This document shows positions 53,438 through 63,785 of a stretch of DNA of 64,000 bases, one piece after another. This stretch comes from Pseudovibrio japonicus. Lineage in GTDB: Bacteria; Pseudomonadota; Alphaproteobacteria; Rhizobiales; Stappiaceae. The stretch lies in contig NZ_BMXE01000012.1 in the NCBI RefSeq assembly GCF_014651595.1, positions 1-64,000 of the forward strand, written 5' to 3'. The translations under genes were made by a program, and so were the position numbers. Within the stretch, counting starts at the first letter, position 1; the number at the start of each line of letters is the position of its first letter. Under the pieces are notes generated by a model that was not told the DNA's origin, made no database searches, and saw nothing but the letters and a program-made list of their open reading frames with translations.

Positions 53438-55807
53438 TTAAGCCAAGTATTTGTTAAACACCTCAAGAGCAGCCAGCTTACGCGAAAGATTTCCATCCAG
53501 CCATTGCTCCAACGCGCCAAGAACACTTTCCTGAGCATAGCAGCGCAGGCACAACGCAGCCCTCGGAATAAGGACACCGTTTTCCATCTGCGCAGCCTCG
53601 AAGATCTCACCCAATGCATTCACATCTGCATCCGCACTCACAAGCTCCATCGCGGCTACACGTAAACCACGTCGCGTGCTCTTCAGATAGCTACATACAT
53701 CGATGTTAGCCTCAGGCTTTCCGGCCAAAATTTTCAGAGCTGAGGCAGAAACAGCATCGGTCTTGTCATTAAGCGCAGCAATCACAACAGCTTCAGCCTC
53801 AGGGTTGTACGAGGTACCAAGCAGCTCAACACGCATCGCACGCACAGCAACATCGTTCTCAGGCGGCAAGGCCAGAATACGCGCGATTGCCTCTTCAGAA
53901 AGCTCCAACCCATTATCAACCAGATGGACAAGGCTCTGACTGGCTGCAAAACGCACCTGCATTTGACGATCAGACAGTGCAGAAATCAGCGCATCAATCA
54001 ACTCTGGACGCTTTGCATCCCCACAGATGCGCAGAGCCAGCAACCGAATGTCCAATGCCGGATCATCCGGACGCCCCGGCACAACCCGCTTCTTCTCGAT
54101 TAGATCATTCGCAAGCTCAAGAAAACGCATGTCTTGCTTGCCCAGCTCCACCGGCTCTTCCGCCAGTTTCTCGATTTCCTCATCGGTGTTCAGGATCGCA
54201 CCAAGCGTGGAACCTGGGAAGGCAACAACGTTGTCAGGCAGATCTTCCACACGCTCAATCGCCCCGTCCGGCACCTCATCAGCAACAGCAGGCTCCGCAC
54301 CGGCAGTCACACTGGCCACCAGCTCCTCAGTAGAACGCTCTTCTACAACAACCTCCTCTTCCGCGACCGCTTCAACAGGGGCAGCCTGAGGTTCAATCAC
54401 GTTGCCTTCGCGGTCGATCTGAACGCGCGGTGGCTTGTCCTCTCCCTTACCGTTATCACCAAGGTCAGAGGGATCCTTCTCCTTTGCACTGTCCAGAATA
54501 TCCTGCTCATGCGCTTCAGGCATCAGCTTGCCGGAAACAGCCCAGACCAACTGCACAGCCGCATTGTCCGCAATATCCCCTTCCCCGTCAGAGAGCTTGG
54601 CAAGCGAGTTCAGTGCAGCAAGACGGATTTCCTGTTCTGCACTCGTCACCTGCTCTTGCAAGATAGCCAGCCCTTCAACGCACGGCTTCTCACCATGCAG
54701 CACAATGAAGGCTTTCAGAACAGGTTCTTCCTTGCGGTGCGTCGCAATCTCGGTCAGCAACGTCTCCGTTGTCTCATTCTCGATCTTAGCAAGCACAGGG
54801 ATCAGCGCTGCAACAAACACATCGCTTGCACTACGCAAGGATCGCTCAATACGCTCAATCAGTGCCTCCGGCTTGGCGATCTCACCAGCAGCCATCCGCT
54901 CAAGTGCCATCACGCGCAAGGTGTCTTCCTCATCCTCAAACGCCACTTTCTCCAGTTTTGAGAACGAGAGTTTACCCAGAGCCTTTAGCGCCAACCGACG
55001 CATTTGCGGCGCACTGTCAGCAAGCAGCACAGCCAGATCCGCTTCTTCACCACGTGCCATCAGCACTTCCGCAGCAGCAACACGCACATCCGGATCCGCA
55101 TCCGCAAACAGAACGCGCAAAATCTCGCCAACACGCTCATCCTGTACAGTAGAAAGCGCACGCGCAGTGTGTTCCCGCACCCGAGCCGACGCATCTGTTG
55201 CGAGTGTGGCCAGCTCAAGCAAACCAGCGGCCCCCATCTCGGAAAGCGCCACAGTCACTTCGGGCCAGACCTCCTGACCAAACGGATCGCGCGCGGCCTC
55301 CAGCAAAGCGGCAGCCGAGGCTTCACACTTCAGCGTGCCCAGCGCCAGAATAGCTTTACGCTGCACATCCAGCCAATCATCCCACTCAGCCCCGTAGCCA
55401 TCCCACGCCACCTCATCCTCGCAGCGGTCCTTAACGAGCTTTGTCAGCCATTCCTCAGCAACCGCACCGCCCACAAGGGCAAGCCCGTCAATCGCAGAAA
55501 GCTTCACCTCCAGCACAGGATCATTCAGCAGGCTCCACAACAGCACATCAGCATCCAACCCCTTGTCCGCGCGGATCAAAGACTCAATCGCATCACTGCG
55601 AACATCTTCACCCTCATCCCGCAGCGCGCTGGCAAGCGCTGCCTGAGCAGCCGAAGTACCAAATTTCCCCAGTATCTGAGCGGATAAACACTTTTCTCGC
55701 TCTTCGCCATTTGCAAGCAACTCACAAAGGATCTTCACGAGCTTATCGCTCGCTTCGCTTGGTTCGCTCACAAAGTCCTGATCCAGATGCCTGGTGGAAA
55801 CCGTCAT
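53438..55807 (-). CDS. Large acidic HEAT-repeat protein downstream of the Idr operon
   Basis: 789 residues. Repeated helical pairs of HEAT type cover about 25-400 and 560-789 (for example VRSDAIESLIRADKGLDADV, VRVAAAEVLMARGEEADLAV, VRFAASQSLVHLVDNGLEL), separated by an acidic, low-complexity linker at about 440-540. No signal peptide or catalytic motif, so it is a cytosolic binding or scaffold protein. It follows idrA on the same strand, 156 bases away with a hairpin between, and a strong terminator follows it. Position suggests a chaperone or assembly role for the cofactor-loaded subunits before Tat export. That role is inference; homologues elsewhere could be unlinked. Confidence 0.75.
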   Translation of the reverse strand: MTVSTRHLDQDFVSEPSEASDKLVKILCELLANGEEREKCLSAQILGKFGTSAAQAALASALRDEGEDVRSDAIESLIRADKGLDADVLLWSLLNDPVLEVKLSAIDGLALVGGAVAEEWLTKLVKDRCEDEVAWDGYGAEWDDWLDVQRKAILALGTLKCEASAAALLEAARDPFGQEVWPEVTVALSEMGAAGLLELATLATDASARVREHTARALSTVQDERVGEILRVLFADADPDVRVAAAEVLMARGEEADLAVLLADSAPQMRRLALKALGKLSFSKLEKVAFEDEEDTLRVMALERMAAGEIAKPEALIERIERSLRSASDVFVAALIPVLAKIENETTETLLTEIATHRKEEPVLKAFIVLHGEKPCVEGLAILQEQVTSAEQEIRLAALNSLAKLSDGEGDIADNAAVQLVWAVSGKLMPEAHEQDILDSAKEKDPSDLGDNGKGEDKPPRVQIDREGNVIEPQAAPVEAVAEEEVVVEERSTEELVASVTAGAEPAVADEVPDGAIERVEDLPDNVVAFPGSTLGAILNTDEEIEKLAEEPVELGKQDMRFLELANDLIEKKRVVPGRPDDPALDIRLLALRICGDAKRPELIDALISALSDRQMQVRFAASQSLVHLVDNGLELSEEAIARILALPPENDVAVRAMRVELLGTSYNPEAEAVVIAALNDKTDAVSASALKILAGKPEANIDVCSYLKSTRRGLRVAAMELVSADADVNALGEIFEAAQMENGVLIPRAALCLRCYAQESVLGALEQWLDGNLSRKLAALEVFNKYLA

Positions 55808-55963: not shown

Positions 55964-58639
55964 CTATGCAATATCGCGACGTGCGAAAGACATGGACCGG
56001 AAACTATCCTTGTATGGGCTTGTGCCGATCTTCTTGATCCGGCCAACACCCATCTTGTAGTTGTAGTTCCCGCTGATCCAGTCCACCACACGGCCAGACA
56101 AAGCGTTCGCTGGCTGTGCAGTGTGCAGGAAGTCCATGTAAAGCATACCCTTCTTCAGCGCCGGGGTAACAATGGCTACCGCAGTAATCGCTGCTTCGGT
56201 CAACTCGATATGGCCGGCTTCCATCAGTTTGGTGAAGGTGAAGTCATCGCCCTCAATGCCCACAGTGGTGTCTGTCTGCACCGGAATACGGTCAGAGTAG
56301 AGCATCACGTAGTCACCGTTCTCGATACCGCGCTCTTTGGCGTCATCTGGATGAATTTCAACCCAGTTCTCAGGCCAGCGCTGCACGATGTAAGGACGAC
56401 GGCGGTCATCATAACCGGACTGCCAACGCTCGTTGATACGACCGGAAGTCACCCAAAGCTCATCATCCTTAGGCTTCATCCATGCCCAGTAATCGGAGAA
56501 CAGGCTCCATGGGCTCTTTTGGATGTTGCACTTACCCGTTTGAGAGTTGAAGTGAGTGAGCTTCTTGTTGTAGCGATTGGAACCACTTGGACCAGTCTCG
56601 GACAGCTCACGGGTTGTGTCATGCAGACGCTTGGTCCCCTGCAGGGTGCCATCTTCAAGCATAACAACCGGACCCTGAATACCGTCCGTGCCGAACTCGG
56701 CAAACTTTTCGTGAAGTGTCTTGCCTTCCTTCTGCGCAGCAACCTTCAGCATAAAGAAGTCTTTGCGGCTGCCACGGGAGAATCGAGCCGCTTCTTCAAG
56801 CACTTCGTTGGAGTTCTTCCAATCGTAGCCCTTAAAGCCCATCTTCTTCGCAAGGTTCGCAACAATCCACCAATCCGGTTTCGCTTCACCCGGTGCATCG
56901 TAAAATTTTGGATACAGCCGCAGACGACGCTCACCGTTTGCACGGGTGAATGTGTCTTCGCCCCAACCAGCAGCCGGGAACACGATGTCTGCGAAACGTG
57001 CGCCAATCGGATCTACGAGGTAGATGTCCTGGTTCACAACAACCATGCCACCGCTATCGACACGCTTCTTCAGCGTATTGATGATCGCTTGCTTGTCGTA
57101 GGAACGCACCTGATGCGGGTTCTGAACAGTCAACTCCTCAAACTTCGCTGCAAGAGACTGGGACCCACACATGGACTGGATCCAAGTGTTACCAATCACA
57201 TGAGCAAAGCGGGTGTGTCCACTCATCAGATACCGGTCCGTATCCATTGCACGGCGCCGACGGCCCGGCAGCTTTTCAGGAGACTTGTTGCGTGGGTAAG
57301 ACCCACCCTTCAGGCCACCACGCTGGTGACCACCAGCACGGCCAATAACCTGACCCGGACGACCACCACAGCCACAGATAATACCAAGCGAAGAAATCGC
57401 ATTGGTGTTACCAGTGTTATTGGACCAGTAGAAGCCCTTCTCGATCATGATGGACGTCTTAGGGCGAGACCCATCTTCACGTGGTTTCGCCATCCACTCA
57501 GCCGCCTTGTAGATTTTCTCTACATCGATCTGAGCAATCTCGGCAGCAGCTGTTGGTTCAAACTCGTCCTGTGCCATCAGCCACTTAACGAAGTCATCGT
57601 AGCCGTCGGTCTGGAACATGCCCCATGTGGTCCGCCACTGCCAGGGCGTGTTACGTGTCCCCTGGCCGAAACCTGAAGAGCTTTCCCACTTGTTGTTGAC
57701 CCAATCACGGATCCATTCAGCGTCCTGCCAGCCATTCTCGATGATCACACGAGCAATCGCATTCACAACAAGAAGGTCGGTTCCCGGCTGAATGTCCAGC
57801 CACAAACCACCATTCTTCTCGGCATACGCCACACCAGCGGTCTTACGCGGGATCATGAAGATGGTCTTCTGACCATTCTGGATTGCAGGCATCATCCAGT
57901 CAGTGAACAGGATGGTTTTGGACTCGTAAGGGTCCGTACCGCACACCAGCAGCGTCTCGGCATCCTTCCAGTCCTGATAGGACGGACCGAAGTTGTCGAA
58001 CCCGGCGTCCCTAAAGCCCGGCGTGGACGTCACATCAGACGGCGTGTCGTGGAATGTGAAGTTCGCGGTGCTGACAGAGCGCAGAGCATACTTGGAAATC
58101 GCGTAGGTGTTTTCCATGTAGCCGTAGGAGAATGTCTTCACGCAGAAAGCATTCTCACCGTGCTTCTTGATGACGTGCTTACCAACTTCCGCAGCAATCT
58201 CCAGAGCCAGATCCCAAGTGACGGGCATCAAAGTGCCGAACATGCGGATCATCGGTGACTTCAGGCGATCGCGGGTTGGGGTCTGCGGGTTGTAAACCTT
58301 CTTCGCCAGCGCACCACCACGGATAGAAGAATTACCATTGATGTTTACATGCTTGGTATCTTTATCCGGAATGATGATTACATGGTGAGGTTCACCCTTG
58401 TGCAGCACAACGTTGTACTGGTTAGGAGCAACCCATGGACCCAGCGGATCAACCGGGAAGTCGACGCCAAAGGCATTTTCAGCAGCTTTCTCGCCGCCCA
58501 CCTTGCCGCCCTTCACAGGCCAGCGATAGATCTTGTAACCACACGCTACGATACAATAATCACATGCAGTGGAAAGAACATCAGCATCTACCGGAGGCAG
58601 CGGAATGTTTGTCCCAGGAATGTAGTAGGGAGTTGACAT
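55964..58639 (-). CDS. idrA: AioA-like molybdopterin oxidoreductase, probable iodate reductase catalytic subunit
   Basis: 891 residues with GAGGAG upstream. A DMSO-reductase-superfamily enzyme that would hold a bis-MGD Mo centre and one 3Fe-4S cluster. The cluster motif is CDYCIVACGYK (C26, C29, C33), in the arsenite-oxidase clade pattern. Further features are TFSYGYMENTYAIS, CGTDPYESKTILF, CGCGGRPGQVIGRAGGHQRG and VDPIGARFADIVFPAAGWGE. It has no signal peptide and would be exported with its Tat-bearing Rieske partner. Arsenite oxidase (AioA) is the alternative; two di-heme peroxidase genes in the same operon and absence of aioXSR or a cytochrome c552 gene favour iodate reductase (IdrA), as described in Pseudomonas sp. 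SCT and Denitromonas. Confidence 0.82.
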   Translation of the reverse strand: MSTPYYIPGTNIPLPPVDADVLSTACDYCIVACGYKIYRWPVKGGKVGGEKAAENAFGVDFPVDPLGPWVAPNQYNVVLHKGEPHHVIIIPDKDTKHVNINGNSSIRGGALAKKVYNPQTPTRDRLKSPMIRMFGTLMPVTWDLALEIAAEVGKHVIKKHGENAFCVKTFSYGYMENTYAISKYALRSVSTANFTFHDTPSDVTSTPGFRDAGFDNFGPSYQDWKDAETLLVCGTDPYESKTILFTDWMMPAIQNGQKTIFMIPRKTAGVAYAEKNGGLWLDIQPGTDLLVVNAIARVIIENGWQDAEWIRDWVNNKWESSSGFGQGTRNTPWQWRTTWGMFQTDGYDDFVKWLMAQDEFEPTAAAEIAQIDVEKIYKAAEWMAKPREDGSRPKTSIMIEKGFYWSNNTGNTNAISSLGIICGCGGRPGQVIGRAGGHQRGGLKGGSYPRNKSPEKLPGRRRRAMDTDRYLMSGHTRFAHVIGNTWIQSMCGSQSLAAKFEELTVQNPHQVRSYDKQAIINTLKKRVDSGGMVVVNQDIYLVDPIGARFADIVFPAAGWGEDTFTRANGERRLRLYPKFYDAPGEAKPDWWIVANLAKKMGFKGYDWKNSNEVLEEAARFSRGSRKDFFMLKVAAQKEGKTLHEKFAEFGTDGIQGPVVMLEDGTLQGTKRLHDTTRELSETGPSGSNRYNKKLTHFNSQTGKCNIQKSPWSLFSDYWAWMKPKDDELWVTSGRINERWQSGYDDRRRPYIVQRWPENWVEIHPDDAKERGIENGDYVMLYSDRIPVQTDTTVGIEGDDFTFTKLMEAGHIELTEAAITAVAIVTPALKKGMLYMDFLHTAQPANALSGRVVDWISGNYNYKMGVGRIKKIGTSPYKDSFRSMSFARRDIA

Positions 58640-58649
58640 GATTTACTCC

Positions 58650-59246
58650 TCACCCTTTGAGATTGTCGTAGCGGCCATAGATCAGCCCGAACATACCGAC
58701 GGCATAAACATCATCACCATCCAGCTCGAGAAGGACCTGAGGTAGGCTCTGGTAAGCCTGACCGGAAATAAAGATACCGTGGCGGGTTAGGTCAAAGGTG
58801 GTCAGGTGAAGGGGGCATGGGCCCAGCGCCTTATCACCTTTTTGATAAGTCCCCTGAAGCGGACCACCCTGATGCGTACAGGTGTAGTTGAACGCCACAA
58901 TGTCCTTGTCAGCCCCAATACCGCCGCCAGCTTCCCTGCCCAGCTTCACAATCATGGACTCGCAATAAGCGCCTTCGTCCGGATAGTTGAAGTCGAGCGG
59001 CTCATCCTCTTTCAGATCAGAAAGCTTACAAATGAACTTGCGCTCATACGTGGAGACCATGGCAGGCATCTTCGCGGAGGAAGGACCAGACTTGAGAGCC
59101 ACCATAACGGTGAAGGTAGAAATACCGGAAGTCAGCAGAAACTGACGGCGTGTCATCACACAGCGCTTGCCGGTTTTTGCGATTTCCTCTGGGCCGTTAA
59201 CGACCTCAACCATCTCAGGAGAGACGGACTTAGGTTGATGTGTCAT
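58650..59246 (-). CDS. idrB: Rieske subunit of the AioA/IdrA-type enzyme
   Basis: 198 residues from the ATG at 59246; the ATG two codons earlier sits directly on the AGAGGAG site. A long cytoplasmic N-tail leads to a twin-arginine signal (TRRQFLLTSGISTFTVMVAL), which carries the complex to the periplasm. The Rieske 2Fe-2S ligands are CTHQGGPL (C123, H125) and CPLH (C144, H147). The position that can carry a disulfide Cys in Rieske proteins is Gly. It passes electrons between the quinol/cytochrome side and the molybdoenzyme. Ten bases separate it from idrA. Confidence 0.85.
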   Translation of the reverse strand: MTHQPKSVSPEMVEVVNGPEEIAKTGKRCVMTRRQFLLTSGISTFTVMVALKSGPSSAKMPAMVSTYERKFICKLSDLKEDEPLDFNYPDEGAYCESMIVKLGREAGGGIGADKDIVAFNYTCTHQGGPLQGTYQKGDKALGPCPLHLTTFDLTRHGIFISGQAYQSLPQVLLELDGDDVYAVGMFGLIYGRYDNLKG

Positions 59247-59258
59247 CTCCATCTCCTC

Positions 59259-60401
59259 TTAATTCGTTACAGCCGGAAGTGGCTCATACTCAGGAAGATC
59301 AGGTGTCTCCATGGTAAGACGCTCGCCAGAGAAGCTCTCTACGAAAGCAACCAGATCAGCTTTCTCATCGTCGGTCAGACCAAGAGGCTTAATCAGGTCA
59401 GTTTTTGTTGCTGCCCAGTCATTGGTGCCACCACCCTGATTGTAGAACTCGACCACATCTTCAAGAGTCTCCAGCATGCCGTTGTGCATGTAAGGAGCGG
59501 TGTATTTGGTGTAACGCAGAGACGGCACACGGAACTTGCCCAGATCGGCTTCTTGCTTTGTCACGAAGTAAAGGCCCGGATCATCCTTCCACTTGCGGTA
59601 TTTCTCTTCCGTGGACCCCTTTGCTAAAAGCTCAAACCGGAAGGTGATCTGCGCAAGCTCGTCTGTTTCCCAGCCGTCATAAGCTGGAACGCCGAGGTTG
59701 TAGTACTTCTGGTTGGAGATCAAAGCACCATCGTGACAGGTGGAACAGCCAGCCTTACCGGTGAAAAGCTCCATGCCCCGCTTCTGCTGATCACTCAGAG
59801 CATCATCATCACCCAGCATATAGAGATCAAACGGAGTATCACGCTGAACGATAGACCGCTCAAACGCAGCAATCGCCATATAAGCGTCACGCATCAAAGG
59901 ATATTCGGTGCCGAACACATCGTTAAAGCGCTCACGATACTCAGGAATAAACGCAAGGCGCGCTTCCATCATGTCGTCTTCACCGTTACCAGCAACACCA
60001 CCACGCGCAGCGGTGCGGGCTTCAGCTTCCAAAGACTTGGAAATACCAGTCCAGAACAGGTTACCGTAATAAGCGGTGTTCACGATGGTGGGCGAGTTAC
60101 GCCAGTGAACTGTACCCGGGTAGCCCAGAGAGATCTTGTCTGGGAAGTCCCAGCCAAGTTCTGGTAGGTGACATGCCGAGCATGGCATGGAACCGTTACC
60201 GGACAGGCGTGGATCAAAGAACAGCAGCTTACCCAGCTCAACCTTTTCAGGTGTCATCGGGTTATCTGGTGGAGAAGGCGGCTCTCCCAAAGGAGCCAAT
60301 TCCGCAGGGCGTTGTTCTGCAGCTTGAACACCAGCTGCAACTGCAACAATAGAAATACCAGCAAGTGCAATCACACCAACGGTTCTTTTGAATATTGTCA
60401 T
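59259..60401 (-). CDS. idrP1: Periplasmic di-heme cytochrome c peroxidase of the Idr operon (nearer idrB)
   Basis: 380 residues with GGGGG upstream. A Sec signal (1-27, ending VQAA) leads to two haem c sites, CSACH (C74-H78) and CSTCH (C219-H223), in the bacterial CCP/MauG pattern. APYMHNGMLETLEDVVEFYN is the conserved block near the second haem. In Idr systems the paired peroxidases are thought to detoxify H2O2 made during iodate reduction. A paralogue of the next gene. Whether this one corresponds to P1 or P2 is assigned by adjacency to idrB only. Confidence 0.83.
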   Translation of the reverse strand: MTIFKRTVGVIALAGISIVAVAAGVQAAEQRPAELAPLGEPPSPPDNPMTPEKVELGKLLFFDPRLSGNGSMPCSACHLPELGWDFPDKISLGYPGTVHWRNSPTIVNTAYYGNLFWTGISKSLEAEARTAARGGVAGNGEDDMMEARLAFIPEYRERFNDVFGTEYPLMRDAYMAIAAFERSIVQRDTPFDLYMLGDDDALSDQQKRGMELFTGKAGCSTCHDGALISNQKYYNLGVPAYDGWETDELAQITFRFELLAKGSTEEKYRKWKDDPGLYFVTKQEADLGKFRVPSLRYTKYTAPYMHNGMLETLEDVVEFYNQGGGTNDWAATKTDLIKPLGLTDDEKADLVAFVESFSGERLTMETPDLPEYEPLPAVTN

Positions 60402-60413
60402 CTTAGCAGCCCC

Positions 60414-61487
60414 CTAATTCTTCTTGTTCCGCCAGTCTTCGATCAACTCGTAAGAGTAGTCGTCGGCTGCCCAAACGTATTCAGGAGTGTCGAAGCTGTC
60501 GCCAGACAAGGCCTTCAGGAACGCAACCAGATTGGCCTTCTCGCTGTTCTTCAAATTGAGTGGCTTCAGACGTGCATCTTTGTTGACATCATCACCGCCG
60601 CCTTGGTTGTAAAACTCTACAACCTCTTCAAGGGTCACCAGCATGCCGTTGTGCATGTAGGGCGCGGTATAAGTCAGCTCACGAAGAGTAGGCGTCAGGA
60701 AGGACCGTTTGGCCTCTTCCTTATGATCCCGGATGAACGCCCCCTGATCCTCGCGTAGGTTCATGTAGTTGTTCACCCCCATGAACTTCGCGTAGGTCAC
60801 ATAGGTGATGTGACGTAGCGGGTCCGACCAGATCTCAGGGTTGTTTGGAACACCGATATTGTGCGGTTGATCATCTGTGAAGCGGTTGCCGGAGTGACAG
60901 GAAGAACATCCTGCTTTGCCCATAAACAGCTCATAACCGCGTCTTTCCGAAACAGTCAGCTCGCCACGGTCAAACCCGGAACCTTTTGATCTAATGGATT
61001 TAAGAAAAGCTTCTAATGCACTGCGAGCACCACCATTGGATGGTTCTCCCTTACCCGCAGCTTCAAACATTTTAACGTAAACCGGATCCTGCTTCAGACG
61101 CTCCTGCATGATCCGCATATCCATGTTCATGATGTAGGTCTCGGTGATCATGCCACGAGACACATCGTTTAGGTTTGTTCCCAAACGACCATCATGCATC
61201 CAGGCTTCCCGGAGCCCGACATTCGCCAGTGTTGGCGTGTTACGGAAACCCTCTGTCCCAGAATATGCGGTAGAGAGCTGTTCGCCATCCGTGAACGCCT
61301 TAGCTGGTTCATGACATGTTGAACAGCTAAGGTTGGTGTCACCAGATAAGCGGCTATCAAAAAATAAACGTTTTCCAAGTTCCACGAGAGCAGGATTCTG
61401 CTCAATCTTTGCAACAGGCCCCAAATCTGTTGCAAATGCCGCAGTGCTCGTCATCAAAGCAATCGATATACTGACGAGAAGGCGCAT
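60414..61487 (-). CDS. idrP2: Periplasmic di-heme cytochrome c peroxidase of the Idr operon (first gene)
   Basis: 357 residues from the ATG at 61487 (GGGGG upstream; the open frame extends 14 codons earlier). Sec signal 1-19 (MRLLVSISIALMTSTAAFA), haem sites CSTCH (C55-H59) and CSSCH (C194-H198), and APYMHNGMLVTLEEVVEFYN. Promoter-proximal gene of the four-gene unit; the FNR-type box at 61591 lies about 100 bases upstream. The two peroxidases share architecture but differ enough to have distinct roles. Confidence 0.83.
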   Translation of the reverse strand: MRLLVSISIALMTSTAAFATDLGPVAKIEQNPALVELGKRLFFDSRLSGDTNLSCSTCHEPAKAFTDGEQLSTAYSGTEGFRNTPTLANVGLREAWMHDGRLGTNLNDVSRGMITETYIMNMDMRIMQERLKQDPVYVKMFEAAGKGEPSNGGARSALEAFLKSIRSKGSGFDRGELTVSERRGYELFMGKAGCSSCHSGNRFTDDQPHNIGVPNNPEIWSDPLRHITYVTYAKFMGVNNYMNLREDQGAFIRDHKEEAKRSFLTPTLRELTYTAPYMHNGMLVTLEEVVEFYNQGGGDDVNKDARLKPLNLKNSEKANLVAFLKALSGDSFDTPEYVWAADDYSYELIEDWRNKKN

Positions 61488-61590: not shown

Positions 61591-61604
61591 TTGATTACAA
61601 TCAG
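61591..61604 (-). promoter_or_regulatory. FNR-type box upstream of the Idr operon
   Basis: TTGAT-TACA-ATCAG matches the FNR/Anr consensus TTGAT-N4-ATCAA at nine of ten positions. It is the nearer box to idrP2, centred about 110 bases before its start codon, which is right for activation with a leader of about 70 bases. Confidence 0.65.
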
Positions 61605-61689: not shown

Positions 61690-61703
61690 TTGATTTATAT
61701 CAA
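61690..61703 (+). promoter_or_regulatory. Perfect FNR-type box upstream of the Crp/Fnr regulator
   Basis: TTGAT-TTAT-ATCAA is a perfect FNR/Anr consensus and is flanked by A and T extending the dyad to 16 bases. Its centre is 65 bases before the regulator start, suggesting autoregulation or cross-regulation by the housekeeping FNR. Confidence 0.8.
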
Positions 61704-61761: not shown

Positions 61762-62529
61762 ATGTCGGGGACAACCCCTCCAAAGATAGTGTCATCACCT
61801 GACCAACTTTCTTTTGAGTGTGTTCAGGAGTCCTGCGGATTTGAGGGCGAAGAGTGCATTTGTCGCCCGATGCATCTCCATTTTGACAAAGCTGAATTAC
61901 GCTCCGCCAGAACCATCGAATTGAACGAAGGGGACCAGCTCGCGCCGGAAGATTTTCCCGAGCCTGTCGTCTTTGCAGTTCTCAATGGTGTAATCGCTAT
62001 CGAGAGCCACCTGAGTGATGGCCGCCGCTCTCTTCTCACGCTCCGCTTCCCGGGCGAATATCTGGACATGAACCGGGCGGATCGGCACGCCTCAGGTGAA
62101 GTGGTCGCGCTCGCGCCAACAAGTGTGAAGCTTGTTCCGCTCAGCATCTTTGAAGAGTTGCTTCTGAAGGATTCCAATCTGCGCCGCATCTACTGGCGTC
62201 GCGCAACCGACATCATGCACCAACAGTTCGACCATTCCTCTGATCTGGGCAAAAAGACCCCGACAGAACGCATGGCCTCCTTTATCTTCGAGCTCCGCAA
62301 CCGCATGAGCATCCCGCGCTTTGTAGAGGAGTTCACACTCCCAATCTCAAGGCAGTCCATCGCGGATTATCTTGGCCTGCGCGCAGAGACCGTAAGCCGT
62401 GTTCTCAAGGGTCTGGAAAAAGAAGGCGCCGTCAAGCTGATCGGCAAACACAAGATCGCGATTCTCGATTTCAAAGGCCTGCGCATGATCGCGAACGGCT
62501 CCCGCCCACGCCTGTCCAATCACCGCTGA
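61762..62529 (+). CDS. Crp/Fnr-family regulator with an unusual N-terminal cysteine cluster
   Basis: 255 residues, GGGGAG eight bases upstream. Four cysteines occur at C20, C25, C32 and C34 (C-x4-C-x6-C-x-C) and nowhere else; classical FNR uses three N-terminal cysteines plus one at about 122. The cyclic-nucleotide-like beta-roll follows (FAVLNGVIAIESHLSDGRRSLLTLRFPGEYLDM). The HTH is ISRQSIADYLGLRAETVSRVLKGLEKEG; its E-x-x-S-R recognition residues predict binding to TTGAT-type FNR boxes, two of which lie upstream. It probably senses oxygen, NO or redox by an Fe-S cluster and activates the divergent Idr operon. Confidence 0.9.
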   Translation: MSGTTPPKIVSSPDQLSFECVQESCGFEGEECICRPMHLHFDKAELRSARTIELNEGDQLAPEDFPEPVVFAVLNGVIAIESHLSDGRRSLLTLRFPGEYLDMNRADRHASGEVVALAPTSVKLVPLSIFEELLLKDSNLRRIYWRRATDIMHQQFDHSSDLGKKTPTERMASFIFELRNRMSIPRFVEEFTLPISRQSIADYLGLRAETVSRVLKGLEKEGAVKLIGKHKIAILDFKGLRMIANGSRPRLSNHR

Positions 62530-62636: not shown

Positions 62637-63785
62637 TCACACCGCCATCTCTTCAACGCCAACCAGTTCAAAAGAGCCCAGTGGAGTCTCAACGCCATTG
62701 AGCAGCACGGCCAGCCTGTGCTCACCCTCATAATACCGGCGTGTCGTAATTGGCCTGATGTTATGCTGCCCCACAACACTGAGAGTCTGGCCGGCTTTCA
62801 ACGTCCCGCGCTTCAGCTTAAAAACCTTGGGCGCCAGCTTACCGTTGGCTTTGCGGTGGTACAATATGAAGTCCAGCATGTAGGAGGTCGCCTTATCTGA
62901 TGAGTTCTCAATCTCCACTGAGAACCCCAGCTTCGATCCAAACTCTACCCGATTATCTCTCAAGGTCCCCGAAACCACCTTCACATGCTCCGGGTCATAC
63001 CCCAACACCGCAAGGCTCGGTAAATGCGCTGCCTTCACATTGCTCCGCAGCGCATGACGCACCAGCCGCTCTGTCTGCACAGAAGGCTTTTCAAGCCACC
63101 TCCCACAAACCTCCGCGACCAAATCCGGATGATCCTTGGAAATATCGTTGAGGTGATTAGCAACAGAGCGGCGCACATATTCCGTCTCATCGTCCTTGAG
63201 CTTCTCTAATAACGGCAGACACTTCTCCGGCGCCTCAATGAAACCTTTCAGTCGAAGCCCCCAGGGCAGTCGCGGCCGCGTTCCTTCGGAAACAAGTCGC
63301 CGCACATGCGCGCTCTCATCCTCGGCCCATTCAGTCAGTAGAGTCATGGCTTCCGCCTCGTATCGCTCAATGAAAGGCCGAATAGCAAACTCGGCTGAAA
63401 ACCGGCAGGTCATCTCCTTCATGGCGGACATAGAAAGCTCAAAGTCCTCCAAACCATAAAGCAGCACGTAGTCCGTAAACGGCATGGTGATGAAGCCGGA
63501 AAGCCCACTGGACCGACTATCCCACAGCGGCTCATCATCCATAGCCAGCGGCGCCGAAAGCGTAGCCAGCATAATCCTCAGGGCTACGCTATAGTCCTCA
63601 GGCAGATGCCGCCGCAAACACCGAGCCAGATGGAACGACCGCTCCTTCAGCTCCAGATCACTCAAGCCATCCATCGCGTCAACAATGAAGCCAGCTGCAT
63701 CAAAACCGGAATGAACCTCTGCTAACGCAGAGGCCATCCGTTCAATCGCGGCTTGATTAAATAACTCTTTGAAAGGTTCAGCCAT
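62637..63785 (-). CDS. DNA alkylation repair protein, AlkC-like
   Basis: 382 residues. A HEAT-like helical domain (about 1-255) with HVRRLVSEGTRPRLPWG and ETEYVRRSVANHLNDIS, typical of AlkC/AlkD-type glycosylases, is followed by an Ig-like beta domain (about 260-380: VEFGSKLGFSVEIEN, YYEGEHRLAVLLNG), the arrangement known for AlkC. Such enzymes remove 3-methyladenine and related lesions from DNA. Its start overlaps the end of the next upstream gene by eight bases. Confidence 0.85.
   Translation of the reverse strand: MAEPFKELFNQAAIERMASALAEVHSGFDAAGFIVDAMDGLSDLELKERSFHLARCLRRHLPEDYSVALRIMLATLSAPLAMDDEPLWDSRSSGLSGFITMPFTDYVLLYGLEDFELSMSAMKEMTCRFSAEFAIRPFIERYEAEAMTLLTEWAEDESAHVRRLVSEGTRPRLPWGLRLKGFIEAPEKCLPLLEKLKDDETEYVRRSVANHLNDISKDHPDLVAEVCGRWLEKPSVQTERLVRHALRSNVKAAHLPSLAVLGYDPEHVKVVSGTLRDNRVEFGSKLGFSVEIENSSDKATSYMLDFILYHRKANGKLAPKVFKLKRGTLKAGQTLSVVGQHNIRPITTRRYYEGEHRLAVLLNGVETPLGSFELVGVEEMAV

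Follow-up and report, generated by a model that had tools for sequence, protein, structure and literature searches.

Is the molybdoenzyme operon on contig 12 of the 4.96-Mb genome of Pseudovibrio japonicus an iodate reductase (Idr), or is it the arsenite oxidase (Aio) that its family names suggest? The window, meaning here the whole stretch of 64,000 nucleotides that was analysed (positions 1 to 64,000 of contig NZ_BMXE01000012.1), holds a four-gene unit on the minus strand, from 61487 to 55964, which an earlier note had read as an iodate reductase operon. Since NCBIfam names both enzyme subunits after arsenite oxidase, a separate test of Idr against Aio was needed. The phylogenetic tree, the active-site marks and the neighbouring genes all support the iodate reductase reading, and on this sequence evidence the operon would encode an Idr of the marine alphaproteobacterial type, with a probability of about 0.9.

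The idr operon and its gene order

The first gene, idrP2 (60414..61487, minus strand), encodes an exported di-haem c-type protein of the CCP_MauG superfamily, with 357 residues, CxxCH motifs at 55 and 194, and Tyr293 at the axial-Met position. After a gap of 12 nucleotides it is followed by idrP1 (59259..60401, minus strand), which encodes a second exported di-haem c-type protein (380 residues, CxxCH at 74 and 219, Tyr320 at the axial-Met position). Six nucleotides further lies idrB (58650..59252, minus strand), for a Rieske subunit of 200 residues with the twin-arginine translocation (Tat) motif TRRQFL at 34 and the motif CXHX18CX2H at 125. A gap of 10 nucleotides separates it from idrA (55964..58639, minus strand), which encodes the molybdopterin catalytic subunit (891 residues, 100 kDa), with the 3Fe-4S motif CX2CX3CX70S at 26 and no signal peptide seen by eye. 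All four reading frames are open and intact, and a purine-rich stretch precedes each start; that of idrP2 is an ATG behind a GGGGG stretch, with an in-frame TTG 42 nucleotides further upstream. The extent of the unit, the two CxxCH motifs and signal peptide of each di-haem protein, the Tat-exported Rieske protein and the C-x2-C-x3-C motif of the molybdoenzyme are all as the earlier note had described them, the signals (Sec on both IdrPs, Tat on IdrB) being judged by eye and by hydropathy. The Pfam family CCP_MauG matches both di-haem proteins (1.8e-39 and 6.9e-38), Rieske matches IdrB (2e-6), and IdrA contains the domains Rieske_3, Molybdopterin and Molydop_binding. Chance is not an issue for these four genes, because they are long and their family matches are strong.

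The order idrP2-P1-B-A given by the earlier note is the canonical one; the strand, to be added to it, is minus. Among the idr loci, all four queries matched in 75, and 71 of these carry P2-P1-B-A on one strand, in Alphaproteobacteria, in Gammaproteobacteria and on a plasmid of Azonexus, a betaproteobacterium. The four exceptions (L025, L028, L037 and L071) are truncated by the end of their contig, where the two IdrP queries match the single remaining gene. The same order is known from Pseudomonas sp. SCT and Denitromonas sp. IR-12, the published name idrABP1P2 giving it in reverse (PMC10989891). Gene order was therefore rejected as a novelty.

Iodate reductase versus arsenite oxidase

The case for an arsenite oxidase (AioBA) with two adjoining peroxidase genes comes from annotation: both subunits score above the cut-offs of the NCBIfam models named "arsenate reductase (azurin)" (430 against 359 bits and 115 against 96 bits), and the best matches of the enzyme in the PDB are AioA. 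This label does not separate Idr from Aio, because an Azonexus plasmid with the idr gene order also carries an IdrA-like protein named arsenate reductase in its record. Moreover, the genome has its own AioBA pair outside the window, on contig 3. The AioA of this pair shares 74% identity with its counterpart in the arsenite oxidiser NT-26 and only 30% with the IdrA of the window.

The catalytic subunits were compared in an alignment of 100 rows (88 IdrA, 11 AioA and one NapA-like outgroup named by inspection), from which identical sequences, sequences shorter than 780 residues, and the loci L084 and L088 had been omitted. A tree of 39 of these rows was built by a quick method without the proven IdrA of Pseudomonas sp. 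SCT and Denitromonas sp. IR-12, and long branches, above all that of the outgroup, drew a warning from the program. In this tree one branch, with a value of 99 in the Shimodaira-Hasegawa-like approximate likelihood ratio test, divides all 28 IdrA rows from the 10 AioA rows. The IdrA of the window is nearest to the protein of Pseudovibrio denitrificans, with 99% identity to the one from strain JCM 12308, and the AioA of the genome itself groups with NT-26 AioA. The earlier note had named placement inside the AioA clade, with arsenite oxidation demonstrated, as a result that would refute its reading, and the 891-residue protein does not fall there. Thalassovita taeanensis and a metagenome-assembled genome (MAG) of Aliiroseovarius share with the window the set of eleven rows starred in the tree; the former is the same taxon as the Litorimicrobium taeanense named in PMC8692401.

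The active-site marks divide the alignment in the same way. SYxxxEN and GGHQ[RC]G are found in 88/88 IdrA and 0/11 AioA, and GGHQEGY in all 11 AioA and none of the 88 IdrA. The DHGG pattern, the arsenite-site stretch of AioA, occurs in 10/11 AioA and 0/88 IdrA, the eleventh AioA (L124) having DHGG with another end; His195, Glu203, Arg419 and His423 have roles in the active site of AioA. SYxxxEN stands in place of DHGG in every IdrA, with a four-residue deletion in the rows shown. The window's enzyme follows this rule, with SY and the four-residue deletion instead of DHGG, and GGHQRGG instead of GGHQEGY. CX2CX3C is present in 87/88 IdrA, the exception (L111) lying at a record end without its N-terminus. 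Both the CX2CX3CX70S motif of IdrA and the CXHX18CX2H motif of IdrB are identical to those of Azoarcus sp. DN11 (PMC10149662).

AioBA, as known from NT-26 and from contig 3 of this genome, resembles IdrAB in its domain families and its Rieske subunit, and differs in sequence (about 30% identity), in the DHGG and GGHQEGY marks absent from IdrA, in the Rieske spacer (15 residues in the genome's own AioB against 18 in IdrB) and in its surroundings. No match to IdrP1 or IdrP2 (E 1e-6) was found in 11 AioA loci of 10-20 kb. An arsenite oxidase is very improbable and was rejected, since the window's enzyme departs from AioA in its place in the tree, in its active-site marks, in the Rieske spacer and in the genes beside it.

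On contig 3, aioBA lies at L117:6550-9549, and a NapA-like protein, so named by inspection, is encoded from L116:7186 onward, some 20 kb away.

Published function and the substrate of the enzyme

Idr has been studied experimentally in marine Alphaproteobacteria. Iodate reduction was shown in Roseovarius azorensis, Aliiroseovarius sediminilitoris and Notoacmeibacter marinus, all of which have idr; these three aerobic strains almost fully reduced 2 mM iodate in static culture and reduced 0.1-0.5 mM when shaken (PMC11445184). In R. azorensis, IdrA was the top protein of a gel slice excised at the active band, and both static growth and iodate at 0.1 uM acted as inducers (PMC11445184). The activity of crude extracts was too low to be detected (PMC11445184). 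This idr is of the same class as that of the window (IdrA of 99.4 kDa against 100.1 kDa), and its induction at low oxygen fits the FNR-type boxes described below; the main text of PMC11445184 makes no mention of the HEAT gene, the boxes or the regulator. The IdrABP1P2 systems of Pseudomonas sp. SCT, Denitromonas sp. IR-12 and Azoarcus sp. DN11 have the four genes in the same order as the window, which differs from these published systems by a HEAT-repeat gene after idrA. The DN11 system shares with the window its 3Fe-4S and Rieske motifs and its Sec and Tat signals; in the place of the window's Crp/Fnr-type regulator with FNR-type boxes it carries a sensor kinase together with a sigma-54 regulator (PMC10149662). 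As a further difference, no cytochrome c551 and no moaA were found among the seven gene products scanned between 53.4 and 63.8 kb of the window.

Substrate promiscuity is common among enzymes of the dimethyl sulfoxide reductase family, and an Idr-type enzyme might serve mainly for another oxyanion, such as bromate, chlorate or nitrate, with iodate as a side substrate. The lack of anaerobic growth on iodate in the tested aerobes would fit this possibility, and yet as little as 0.1 uM iodate induces idrA in R. azorensis, statically grown cells given iodate reduce it, and the growth of Denitromonas on iodate is stated to need idrA (PMC11445184). A different main substrate is accordingly regarded as improbable. 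A chlorite-dismutase step was also considered and rejected, with no match to PF06778 in the genome at E 0.001; the identical search was positive in 7/14 control genomes.

A few observations weigh against iodate reduction as the function of this operon. The IdrA of the window is only about 52% identical to the Azonexus/Thiothrix type, which we suppose to be nearer to the betaproteobacterial strains with proven growth on iodate. In addition, the three alphaproteobacterial strains showed neither growth nor iodate reduction in bottles filled with N2 (data not shown in PMC11445184), though R. azorensis cells that had been induced statically and then washed were able to reduce iodate anaerobically (PMC11445184). 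No report of idr or of iodate reduction in Pseudovibrio was found in the searched literature, most subscription papers being outside its reach. Iodate reduction by the host, as deduced from its genes, is the best reading.

The di-haem proteins IdrP1 and IdrP2

In the literature the IdrPs count as cytochrome c peroxidases for the removal of H2O2 (PMC8692401, PMC10746228, PMC12535851), and ordinary H2O2 scavenging is the role that published models give them (PMC8692401, PMC10149662). The CCP_MauG fold and the two haems in each protein agree with this role. The residues that mark a cytochrome c peroxidase (the axial Met, the activating His and the distal Gln-Pro-Glu) do not. They were compared in an alignment of those sequences that were long enough, 74 IdrP1 and 71 IdrP2 with the window's own included, against hand-typed stretches of 1eb7, 1nml, 1iqc and 6e1c, the Glu of 6e1c falling in a gap and not being compared. 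In all 145 IdrPs, Tyr stands at the axial Met and again at the activating His, and the distal Pro and Glu are absent. The distal Gln is retained in 67/74 IdrP1 and 0/71 IdrP2, so that no IdrP has the full set, and the inter-haem Trp is replaced by His in 68/71 IdrP2. The two IdrPs are the only CCP_MauG proteins in the genome, and the NCBIfam models for MauG and MbnH match them below their cut-offs. The "di-heme enzyme" 6e1c, presumably MbnH, has Tyr at the axial-Met position and no His at the activating-His position.

Tyr-His ligation is the mark of MauG and BthA, and the IdrPs likewise have Tyr at the axial-Met position; unlike every IdrP, both of these enzymes retain the distal Gln-Pro-Glu (PMC6405878). 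In BthA the distal Glu is required for peroxidase activity, and a change of the Tyr to His left H2O2 reduction intact (PMC6405878). As a Tyr-His enzyme BthA still reduces H2O2, and in the IdrPs the conserved acids nearby (E116 and D123 of IdrP2, E141 and D143 of IdrP1) could act as substitutes. Ordinary peroxidases are a serious contender, at a little under even odds. The axial Tyr and the incomplete distal set cast doubt on this role, and by their residues the IdrPs are somewhat more probably not ordinary peroxidases. Among the papers listed for MauG together with iodate, nothing relevant was found by title.

A HEAT-repeat gene linked to idr

Downstream of idrA, on the same strand, lies a gene for a HEAT-repeat protein of 789 residues (53438..55807, minus strand), cytoplasmic as judged by its N-terminus and present in a single copy in the genome. 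The set of loci surveyed for it consists of the best 80 of 593 matches in a scan of genome contigs with IdrA. By tblastn, a HEAT match stands directly after idrA on the same strand in 71/71 alphaproteobacterial loci of this set with more than 243 nucleotides past idrA, one of which (L065) is labelled only Proteobacteria. A rule based on open reading frames found 68 of them, missing L037, L038 and L066, and in these 68 the gene starts between -23 and +209 nucleotides from the idrA stop. L084, which is cut within idrA, and L024 were not counted; the 243 nucleotides past idrA in L024 encode the start of a HEAT-family protein.

The linkage extends to whole genomes, in which few candidates were scored per genome, so that weak relatives may be missed. 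Around the window's own genome, the HEAT gene is present in 16/16 idr-positive and 0/45 idr-negative relatives, 8 of the latter carrying an AioA-type protein only. Among 337 alphaproteobacterial genomes, matches above 70 bits were found in 11/12 with IdrA and 0/325 without, those in the 11 scoring 74.8 bits and up. Weak partial matches of 42-53 bits, to the C-terminal repeats only, appear in 8 of the 325, and the IdrA of the one positive genome without a HEAT match (G119) is cut off at a contig end.

Other counts speak against the HEAT gene as a general part of the system. It is directly downstream in 0/10 non-alphaproteobacterial loci (7 of the set and 3 plasmid loci; one of the ten, L080, shows only 334 nucleotides). 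In a phylum-wide sample of 398 genomes it occurs in 2/5 with IdrA, the IdrA of the three without it showing 66, 52 and 51% identity to the window's protein, and the last of these three (G616) is itself an alphaproteobacterium; partial matches of 43-65 bits were seen in 18 genomes of this sample without IdrA. In the window, idrA and the HEAT gene are separated by 156 nucleotides, and their co-transcription is putative. A HEAT-family member is also absent from one of the six gammaproteobacterial idr genomes and from a deltaproteobacterial idr MAG; in the other five of the six it lies elsewhere or divergent upstream, never downstream of idrA. Since several idr genomes lack it and no non-alphaproteobacterial locus has it directly downstream, the reaction itself does not require the HEAT protein.

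What, then, could it do? Hydropathy reveals no signal peptide or membrane stretch (maximum over 19 residues 1.53), and in the AlphaFold model, whose mean predicted local distance difference test score is 82, two lobes of helices (roughly residues 18-425 and 557-788) are connected through a linker modelled with low confidence. The 50 matches listed by Foldseek are importins, CAND1, PP2A scaffolds, spliceosome components, designed repeat proteins and others of this sort, and among these the template modelling scores by query length are at most 0.37; a sequence search of solved structures gave generic matches only. The repeats are not all that the family has in common: fifteen residues are invariant in 34 HEAT sequences, 32 of which are just 22-32% identical to that of the window. 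They include W135, W142, W145 and Q149, and a pattern for the W135-Q149 stretch fits 62/63 full-length members.

Genes for molybdoenzyme chaperones, such as narJ and torD, often lie next to that of the catalytic subunit. What this pathway does in the cytoplasm is limited to synthesis, insertion of the cofactor, Tat proofreading and regulation. For these two reasons the HEAT protein is tentatively taken as a maturation helper of IdrA, an assignment given slightly less than an even chance. Chaperones of the TorD/NarJ/DmsD type are likewise all-helical, cytoplasmic and encoded next to the catalytic subunit; the HEAT protein differs from them in being a HEAT solenoid. The one PF02613 match of the genome is on another contig. 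In the searched literature, nothing relevant was found on HEAT repeats with iodate or with a molybdoenzyme chaperone. The gene could also be a bystander that is inherited with the locus and whose role is purely regulatory or has nothing to do with Idr, as the kinship among alphaproteobacterial idr loci and its absence from several idr genomes would allow. However, it stays constant while other flanking genes vary between families, in one genome (G347) it is found on the same strand 13.5 kb downstream, past two cytochrome modules, and a family member recurs in five of the six gammaproteobacterial genomes, though not downstream of idrA; the invariant residues at such low identity speak against it as well. 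A mere neighbour is thus possible, if somewhat doubtful.

Probable regulation by an FNR-type factor

Divergent from the operon is a gene for a Crp/Fnr-family regulator of 255 residues (61762..62529, plus strand), with E209-T-V-S-R213 in its helix-turn-helix and a four-cysteine motif near the N-terminus. The intergenic region contains two FNR-type boxes. One is exact (TTGATATAAATCAA, 61690..61703) and is the only exact match within the 64-kb window; the second (CTGATTGTAATCAA, 61591..61604) has one mismatch and is read on the minus strand.

Regulators of this type are linked to idr in a subset of families. In 65 upstream regions, a box with at most one mismatch is found in 12/15 of those linked to a Crp/Fnr-type regulator, 11 of the 15 having two, and in 4/18 beside a two-component system and 9/32 others, none of which has two. 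As controls, 48 of 1280 random stretches of 400 nucleotides from the same loci contain a box, and mononucleotide-shuffled upstream regions gave a mean of 0.86 and a maximum of 4 of 65. Regulator type and boxes thus travel together. To be set against this, three Crp-linked loci (L014, L016 and L018) have only boxes with two mismatches, and 13/15 Crp-linked loci are from Pseudovibrio or Roseibium/Labrenzia and are therefore not independent.

FNR itself is marked by four essential cysteines in a characteristic spacing and by an E-SR recognition helix. E-T-V-S-R is found in 15/15 idr-linked regulators, and the N-terminal four-cysteine motif in 13/15 (absent in L026 and L067), with a spacing unlike that of FNR; the NCBIfam models for FixK, FnrL and Fnr match the window's regulator below cut-off. 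Control of the operon by an FNR-type factor at low oxygen is considered likely. The searched literature yielded no description of FNR-type control of idr, the fnr of PMC8692401 concerning nitrate reductase.

As a side observation, the four-cysteine motif of the idr-linked regulators of Pseudovibrio and Roseibium is a possible sensor of oxygen, redox state or iodine. Beyond the regulator, at 62637-63785 of the window, a second repeat-type protein is encoded (DNA_alkylation family match, 1.2e-5), and this gene is found near idr in four Pseudovibrio loci, L009-L012.

Other genes and lineages around idr

A module of cytochrome-bd-like subunit I, c-type cytochromes and an EB_dh-type cytochrome adjoins idr-HEAT at L128:2923-15881, where it occurs twice, and in L039, L063, L064, L065 and other loci, several of the carriers being marine MAGs; it is a possible electron route from quinol to Idr. 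A gene of the azurin/plastocyanin family, of which one member was scanned (L022), is present near idr in L014-L019, L022, L043, L044 and others (Roseibium, Ruegeria and other loci), and its product is a candidate electron donor. In the window's own genus, L100 and L101 (genomes G013 and G011) carry another idr lineage, 77-79% identical, that groups with Ruegeria and Cohaesibacter, and that may reflect a replacement or a separate gain by transfer.

Proposed mechanism and its meaning

When oxygen is low, the two boxes would be bound by the regulator or by some other FNR/FixK protein, which would switch the idr operon on. Quinol-pool electrons would then pass, in the periplasm, through a c-type cytochrome to the Rieske cluster and on to IdrA, which would reduce iodate to hypoiodous acid, a product that in the published model disproportionates to iodide and iodate (PMC8692401). 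The two IdrPs would handle the reactive product or electron transfer. Taken as a whole, this explanation of the locus (an Idr operon with FNR-type control, a HEAT gene and a role for the IdrPs) is judged highly probable from the sequence data. A further-reaching proposal sees in the marine Alphaproteobacteria a five-gene unit for iodate reduction, in which the HEAT solenoid with its invariant Trp cluster is a maturation factor of IdrA, and as such a new class of molybdoenzyme chaperone, and in which IdrP1 and IdrP2 are Tyr-His di-haem enzymes acting on an iodine intermediate or on IdrAB and not peroxidases; that both parts hold together is rather unlikely.

The core enzyme is known, and no report of it in this host was found. 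Its surroundings would make it, provisionally and as far as the literature was searched, an undescribed variant. The HEAT gene, the regulator with its boxes and the genome's separate AioBA were no part of the earlier note. The HEAT linkage, the regulator with its boxes and the residue changes of the IdrPs were not found described for idr in that literature. Pseudovibrio is a culturable genus associated with sponges and ascidians, which would make it a tractable host for the study of Idr. With its regulator and two boxes, control by oxygen could be tested directly; the HEAT gene may be a component so far missing from Idr assembly, and one open to testing; and the residues of the IdrPs directly challenge the standing model of H2O2 detoxification. 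The question of which marine bacteria produce iodide, and at what times, matters for the loss of ozone at the surface of the sea (PMC11445184).

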